From Thermoplasmata archaeon (lineage in GTDB: Archaea; Thermoplasmatota; Thermoplasmata; Methanomassiliicoccales; Methanomethylophilaceae), in contig SUTA01000006.1 of assembly GCA_015063135.1 (NCBI GenBank), forward strand, positions 1-64,000: a stretch of DNA of 64,000 bases, in the 5' to 3' direction. The notes under the pieces were generated by a model. It made no database searches. It had not been told where the DNA came from and saw nothing but the letters and a program-made list of their open reading frames with translations. Shown here one piece after another: positions 22,686-23,141 of the stretch. Positions within the stretch are counted from its first letter, which is position 1; each line of letters opens with the position of its first letter. Made by a program: the position numbers and the translations under genes.

Positions 22686-23051
22686 TCAGTTCTTGAGGCC
22701 GGCGACTGCCTGGGCGATCTCCTCGCAGACGGCCTTGCCCTTTCCGACATCGACGATGGCGATGGAAGCGGTGGGCTTGTCGAGGCCGATGGCGGCTCCG
22801 AGCTCGACCTTGCTGGGGACGTAGACGTAGGGGACCTTCCTCTCGTCGCACAGGGCGGGCATGTGGGCGAGGATCTCCGGGGGCTCGACATCGACGGCCA
22901 TGATGACCATGGCAGCGGCGCCGCGCTCGACGGCCTTGGTGACCTCGTTGGTTCCCTTCTTGATCTTTCCGCCGTCCCTGGCCATCTCGGCGAGGGTGTA
23001 GGCTTTGTCCGACAGCTCCTTGGGAGTCTCAAACTTCACAAATACAGACAT
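22686..23051 (-). CDS. rpl7ae: Ribosomal protein L7Ae, kink-turn binding protein
   Basis: 121 residues. [13 protein letters not shown] (about 32-44) is the RNA-binding signature of L7Ae, followed by [25 protein letters not shown]. It binds kink-turns in 23S rRNA, box C/D and H/ACA guide RNAs and RNase P. ATG 23051 with GAGGT at 23059-23063 is preferred to an upstream in-frame ATG at 23096, which would lie inside the structured leader. First gene of the L7Ae-S28e-L24e-NDK-aIF5B operon. TGA stop. Confidence 0.96.
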
Positions 23052-23058
23052 TTCAATT

Positions 23059-23091
23059 ACCTCTTTCCGGCACGCGAAGGTGCCGTCATCA
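23059..23091 (-). promoter_or_regulatory. Candidate kink-turn in the L7Ae mRNA leader overlapping the Shine-Dalgarno
   Basis: In the transcript, stem CGGCAC (23085-23080) / GUGCCG (23073-23068) is closed by loop CUUCGC. Its base is flanked on the 5' side by GAU-GA and on the 3' side by GA. This gives a 3-nt bulge plus tandem G·A/A·G pairs next to the non-canonical stem, the kink-turn layout. The 5' strand also reads AUGAUGA, a box C sequence. The canonical stem below is weak (one U-A pair visible). The 3' GA is separated from the GAGGU Shine-Dalgarno by two nucleotides, so bound L7Ae would block ribosomes. Confidence 0.55.
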
Positions 23092-23111
23092 TTCATCGGC
23101 TCTGAATTGAG

Positions 23112-23141
23112 CGACCGTCGCTAGCGGTCGGTGGTATATAT
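23112..23141 (-). promoter_or_regulatory. Promoter of the L7Ae operon with adjacent palindrome
   Basis: TATA box (TATATACC on the minus strand, 23135-23141). Between it and the expected transcription start (about 23111) lies CGACCG-N7-CGGTCG (23112-23130), a 6-bp palindrome placed where a repressor would block initiation. Confidence 0.6.

Follow-up and report, generated by a model that had tools for sequence, protein, structure and literature searches.

A predicted tandem kink-turn off switch that incorporates the Shine-Dalgarno sequence in archaeal l7ae leaders

The leader of the gene for ribosomal protein L7Ae (rpl7ae or l7ae) in an archaeon of the Methanomethylophilaceae is probably (at roughly 0.75) an L7Ae-responsive translational off switch of two tandem kink-turns, the outer of which uses the Shine-Dalgarno sequence. 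The leader lies in a stretch of 64,000 nucleotides, hereafter the window, from contig SUTA01000006.1 of the Thermoplasmata archaeon assembly GCA_015063135.1. The predicted inner kink-turn consists of GAU-GA opposite GA on a covarying stem-loop, and the outer kink-turn would consist of GCC-GAU-GA opposite GA-GGU, with its plain strand and C helix supplied by the Shine-Dalgarno. At low levels of free L7Ae, the outer part of the leader would be open and the ribosome would bind; when L7Ae is in excess, one or two copies would bind and fold the kink-turns, GAGGU would be buried and translation of L7Ae would stop. As the genes are closely packed, translation of S28e, L24e and NDK would probably be stopped as well.

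The gene predicted to be regulated, which also encodes the presumed binding protein, comes first in the gene order l7ae-S28e-L24e-ndk-infB, which is already known (PMC10833476). The L7Ae protein carries the recognition-helix motif GTNExTK, and its closest relatives are from uncultured Methanomethylophilaceae of the ruminant gut and similar places, which places the window in Methanomassiliicoccales. An L7Ae/L30e-family paralogue (L30e-like) is encoded elsewhere in the same genome (G000:C21:16836-17087). The stop codons of l7ae and S28e overlap the Shine-Dalgarno of the next gene, and ndk starts 5 nt past the L24e stop. Because of this tight packing, translational coupling to S28e, L24e and NDK is plausible from the gene arrangement; the case for coupling to aIF5B is weaker, since infB starts 50 nt after ndk and has its own site.

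The rpl7ae ATG is at 23051 on the minus strand and is preceded by a leader of about 61 nt. Read directly, the proximal leader is GAUGAAU-GAU-GA-CGGCAC-CUUCGC-GUGCCG-GA-AA-GAGGU-AAUUGAA-AUG and the full leader is GCUCAAUUCAGAGCC-GAUGA-AU-GAUGA-CGGCAC-CUUCGC-GUGCCG-GA-AA-GAGGU-AAUUGAA-AUG, with the tandem layout GCC-[GAU]-GA-AU-[GAU]-GA-stem-loop-GA-AA-GA-GGU (bulges in brackets). The initial annotation had marked 23059-23091 of the minus strand as a kink-turn beside the Shine-Dalgarno, and the 6-bp stem, GAU-GA / GA, the AUGAUGA strand and the two nucleotides before GAGGU are all present there. Its reading as a likely L7Ae autoregulatory site is well supported by the conservation of the leader and by published work in other archaea; it covers half of the element, which extends upstream to 23100, about 9 nt past the 5' edge given. 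The AAU versus AAG stem, regarded as weak and as the main doubt, is a 2-bp link to the outer kink-turn that contains the Shine-Dalgarno. The two predicted kink-turns would thus have the same orientation and be linked by two base-pair steps (AU/AA), with the non-bulged GA and C-helix strand of the outer one provided by the Shine-Dalgarno (Table 1).

Table 1. Coordinates of the l7ae leader and operon in the window; kink-turn (k-turn) assignments are predictions.
Feature	Position	Strand	Basis or remark
TATA-like box TATATA, putative promoter	23135..23140	-	read directly
5' hairpin GCUC(AAUUCA)GAGC adjoining element	23099..23112	-	fold prediction; last C shared with outer C helix
Outer k-turn C helix, 5' strand GCC (partner GGU 23059-23061)	23098..23100	-	-1 and -2 both paired in 132/141 leaders
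Outer k-turn bulge L1-L3, GAU	23095..23097	-	L1, L2 vary; L3 = U in all matches
Outer k-turn GA, bulged strand	23093..23094	-	130/137 leaders with inner module defined independently
Spacer AU	23091..23092	-	U:A23065 = outer 4b:4n = inner -1b:-1n; A opposite A23064 = outer 3b:3n
Inner k-turn bulge GAU	23088..23090	-	leader comparison
Inner k-turn GA, bulged strand	23086..23087	-	invariant alignment columns
Inner NC stem-loop CGGCAC-CUUCGC-GUGCCG	23068..23085	-	compensatory changes in all six pairs
Inner k-turn GA, non-bulged strand	23066..23067	-	invariant alignment columns
Spacer AA, non-bulged strand	23064..23065	-	first A nearly invariant, second base variable
Shine-Dalgarno GAGGU = outer non-bulged GA + C-helix strand GGU	23059..23063	-	sequence and leader comparison
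rpl7ae CDS (L7Ae, 121 aa)	22686..23051	-	Pfam PF01248; solved L7Ae homologues, E about 1e-41
rps28e	22675-22463	-	Pfam; junction sequence
rpl24e	22457-22236	-	Pfam; junction sequence
ndk	22230-21775	-	Pfam; junction sequence
infB/aIF5B start	21724	-	junction sequence

From the TATA-like box and the usual spacing of such boxes from the start of transcription, the transcript is predicted to begin at 23112, give or take about 3 nt, and the 5' hairpin sits at about this position. Most of the order has a GCUCU..AGAGC form of the hairpin, which is missing in one family (L044-L047, L052, L055-L057). A role for a GCUCUU hairpin as an anti-Shine-Dalgarno against AAGAG, possible in many relatives, is rejected: the window has GCUCAA and one family has no hairpin.

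The tandem layout is widespread among l7ae leaders. The window leader was compared with 277 further records of l7ae leaders in Thermoplasmatota, Halobacteriota and the phylum containing Hadarchaeum, giving 229 distinct leaders in total. The consensus is a C-helix strand, NNU, GA, two bases, NNU, GA, a stem-loop, GA, two bases, GA and GGU. A descriptor of this layout matches 139 of 227 distinct leaders compared to 14 of 11,350 shuffles that retain the Shine-Dalgarno, and has a single match across both strands of the window. By lineage, and with leaders of related genomes being non-independent samples, the layout is found in all 94 distinct leaders from Methanomassiliicoccales and their near relatives, 20/29 of Halobacteriota, 13/25 of the phylum with Hadarchaeum and 21/78 of other Thermoplasmatota; in this same set it is missing from some Halobacteriota and many other Thermoplasmatota leaders. 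Within a set of 21 relatives sharing the same geometry, identity reaches 97% over the 15-nt strand GCCGAUGAAUGAUGA, compared to 32% for the promoter region and 86% for the first 60 nt of the coding sequence. Variants of the layout include L118 and L120, in which the inner stem-loop is larger, having an 11-bp stem and a long loop, and both kink-turn modules are retained; L158-L160 (Methanoperedens), in which the tandem GA layout is retained, GGAAGU takes the place of the usual Shine-Dalgarno and pairing of the outer C helix is lost; and the Methanosarcina-like leader L340, in which the layout is present with only one outer pair.

In the related genomes the element is specific to l7ae. A covariance model (R1), trained on 56 leaders of which six are from Halobacteriota, finds the l7ae leader of the window at 61.3 bits (E 9.5e-16; next best E 0.14). 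In 39 of 41 related genomes R1 has exactly one strong site (E 1e-10 to 1e-15), always the l7ae leader; the two genomes without a site are 61% and 66% complete, and no true l7ae was located in either. No other target of the tandem element is detected in these 41 genomes (next-best E 0.05 or worse). Among Halobacteriota, R1 matches 83 of 148 genomes at E 0.01 or better, and where l7ae was located independently the match is directly upstream on the same strand in 39 of 41 cases. The 101 genomes of Thermoproteota (the phylum of a Bathyarchaeota locus) yield five weak matches, none at an l7ae leader.

The inner module follows kink-turn rules: the GA dinucleotides are invariant, L1/L2 and 3b:3n are variable, and -1b:-1n and the NC helix are paired. 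As judged from sequence and invariance, the leader has the three-nucleotide bulge followed by tandem G-A / A-G that is expected of an l7ae-leader kink-turn. The initial annotation looked to covariation among relatives for support, and this is borne out in the 56-leader alignment, in which all six inner NC pairs have compensatory changes. The inner stem has 97 cells changed on both sides compared to 35.5 in shuffles (0 of 500 shuffles reach 97), and control structures slid along the alignment have 5 to 15. NC pairs 4b:4n and 5b:5n are standard in 141/141 leaders, a count to be read with the selecting descriptor, which required at least three stem pairs.

The outer module obeys the same rules, with GA fixed, L3 fixed as U, L1/L2 variable and -1b:-1n paired; the tandem G·A positions, whose conservation the initial annotation had singled out, are invariant in both modules. 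With the inner module defined independently, nearly all leaders carry the outer GA at its exact offset (Table 1), and GA at other offsets is found in 0-5 leaders, apart from two offsets that are the motif's own GAU and GAGCC. The spacer pair U:A is present in 138/141 leaders, and the adjacent outer 3b:3n position varies freely (A:G, A:A, A:U, U:G, U:A, A:C, G:G, C:G and others). Pairing of the outer C helix is retained despite other letters in some lineages (AAUC/GGUU, AUAUC/GGUAU and ACC/GGU). Covariation in this helix, as assessed in a reduced set, is modestly above permutation at -2 and -3 (p 0.003 and 0.035) and no better than permutation at -4 and -5; it is weak because the plain strand doubles as the Shine-Dalgarno and is conserved anyway. 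Invariant G-A pairs leave no room for covariation, so the case for the outer kink-turn is made by its invariance, the exactness of its spacing, the complementarity of its helix strands and its modular loss; its G-A pairs are presumed to be sheared.

Modular loss is seen in one group of Thermoplasmatota that has the outer module without the inner: the leader is GCCUAUGA-UAG-GAGGC with a three-base loop, and other genomes carry the complete inner module at this position (GCCUAUGA-AUAAUGAUGGUAAAACCAGAAG-GAGGC). The minimal leader GCC-UAU-GA-UAG-GA-GGC is noted in L074, L077, L083, L168, L170, L175, L177, L187 and L191. An outer-only leader, GAGCC-GAU-GA-UGGA-GA-GGUGA, also occurs in Halobacteriota (L254, genome G187), apparently by independent loss of the inner module. 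Certain other Thermoplasmatota (L169, L173, L174, L178, L179, L182 and L186) have a different conserved l7ae leader, (A)UCGAUGAAAGCUCU..AAAGGAGGCU, which is possibly another kink-turn arrangement.

Secondary structure prediction by ViennaRNA recovers the inner stem alone, not the k-turns or outer part, and the total fold is modestly stable (z -1.7). The inner C helix has one pair and the outer three. Leaders of this kind are expected to be open in the absence of protein. An alternative ViennaRNA pairing downstream of the Shine-Dalgarno (CGAU:AUUG) is seen by eye in part of the family, is not order-wide and is rejected.

An unlikely alternative to the tandem arrangement, corresponding to the initial annotation, is that the inner kink-turn functions alone and that conservation of the upstream GAUGA has some other cause. 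Only a single kink-turn is drawn for each leader in published work (PMC5539422, PMC6298567), and strong covariation is confined to the inner module. However, an inner kink-turn acting by itself would have a C helix of one real pair in most leaders (-2 is paired in 28/141), and this reading does not account for the exact offset of the outer GA or for the several lineages that retain the outer module alone. A register that mixes the modules, with the outer bulged strand opposite the inner plain strand and the second GAUGA in the terminal loop, is very unlikely. This register is drawn for Archaeoglobus (A.) fulgidus, where it matches the published FRET strands (the first GAUGA and the first GA following the loop, which places C:A at -1) and where a modified version crystallised as a kink-turn (PMC6298567). 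The construct had -3n and 5n changed to gain pairing (PMC6298567); across the leaders, the mixed register pairs C-helix -1 and -2 together in 8/141 compared to 132/141 for the tandem register, forms both NC pairs in 1/141 and disrupts the covarying inner stem. The locus L324 encodes a protein identical to PDB 1RLG over 119 residues and matching 6HCT; thus, it represents either the A. fulgidus gene itself or one identical to it. The L324 leader, GCC-GAU-GA-AU-GAU-GA-UUUGAU-GA-AG-GA-GGU, cannot alone decide the register, as its inner stem is almost absent. Comparison with the other leaders suggests that the native A. fulgidus leader adopts the tandem register; the crystal establishes that kink-turn formation is possible for the modified mixed duplex and does not show native use of that register.

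Readings in which the leader is not a regulatory site of the message are scarcely credible. A coding extension from the upstream ATG (23096) is in frame in the window and many relatives (19 protein letters), yet the frame is lost via length changes or stops in others (e.g., L003, L010 and L023), the stem shows compensatory changes around a loop of variable length, and L7Ae homologues align from about residue 3-4 of MSVFVKFE. Similarly improbable is a box C/D guide RNA or other sRNA encoded in the leader: AUGAUGA fits box C, yet there is no box D (CUGA), with CGGA in the window and NGA of variable N in relatives at that place; the stem-adjacent sheared GA is the second one, not that of the box C register; the leader has no C'/D' pair; and no Rfam family matches it at E values up to 5.

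The tandem arrangement, if correct, replaces a vague class of leaders drawn by hand with a precise element of fixed spacing and defined register, which a model can locate in whole genomes. Hiding of the ribosome binding site would follow from the Shine-Dalgarno being part of the protein's own binding site, and a tandem element would allow two-to-one stoichiometry and a steeper response. The proposed register challenges the one drawn for the only leader with a crystal structure. A broader proposal, held tentatively and at somewhat less than even odds, is that l7ae was ancestrally regulated, across much of Euryarchaeota, by a tandem kink-turn to which two L7Ae bind cooperatively and in which the Shine-Dalgarno forms the outer sheared G-A pairs; if true, the off switch would be sharper and the single-kink-turn register of A. 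fulgidus would need revision. A natural tandem kink-turn with modules two steps apart may also serve as a part for sensitive switches.

Two adjacent kink-turns in one RNA are reportedly known from euryarchaeal RNase P RNA, in which Lai et al. are said to have described (in 2017) a double kink-turn module with L7Ae as ligand. The l7ae leader resembles this module in its two adjacent predicted kink-turns, and differs in being an mRNA leader rather than a catalytic RNA. Among the RNase P RNAs of this order, 10 were compared and none gives a clean match to the tandem pattern of the leader, and RNase P mimicry is rejected on this basis. A designed double k-turn duplex forms two kink-turns that each bind one L7Ae in crystals, with ten base pairs between them (PMC5058347). 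That duplex is artificial and head-to-head with loops on opposite strands (PMC5058347), whereas in the l7ae leader both predicted bulges are on one strand, in the same orientation and two steps apart. Yeast L30e, which belongs to the L7Ae family, is reported to recognise a kink-turn within its own pre-mRNA and to affect splicing as well as translation (as cited in PMC5539422 and PMC6298567); the leader studied here likewise places a predicted kink-turn in the message of an L7Ae-family protein, and the yeast system is unlike it in being eukaryotic and in acting on splicing also.

The basic idea, autoregulation of L7Ae by a kink-turn in its leader, has been published before and is thus not new. 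L7Ae of Sulfolobus acidocaldarius represses translation of its own message through a leader kink-turn, to which it binds, and such leaders were found by manual inspection to be conserved in most archaea, several euryarchaeal leaders being tested by reporter (Daume et al. 2017; PMC5539422). Likewise, reporter assays, gel shifts and probing have shown that L7Ae acts on other l7ae leaders (PMC5539422, PMC6298567). The supposition that such control had been described in Sulfolobales alone thus does not stand, nor does the expectation that finding it before the whole operon would be new, as both the autoregulation and gene order are on record (PMC5539422, PMC10833476). What appears new is a variant of the single-kink-turn description, namely, the tandem layout with the Shine-Dalgarno inside the predicted outer kink-turn; no prior report of the tandem element was found in Rfam or in the main texts of the openly licensed literature. 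The leader is like the system of Daume et al. in having a predicted kink-turn in the l7ae 5' UTR beside the Shine-Dalgarno, where L7Ae exerts negative feedback in the published system (PMC5539422) and would do so here, and unlike it in that the published system has a single Kt-b/Kt-n pair instead of two in tandem with the outer built from the Shine-Dalgarno. For A. fulgidus, a modified kink-turn with L7Ae was solved (Huang, Ashraf and Lilley 2019; PDB 6HCT), and the native leader stays open in the absence of L7Ae, whose binding hides the ribosome binding site (PMC6298567). The leaders share the GAU bulge and tandem G-A pairs, and the opening without protein and Shine-Dalgarno occlusion reported there (PMC6298567) are those proposed here; the tandem register differs from the published one in that GCC would pair with GGU and the GA of the Shine-Dalgarno would be used.
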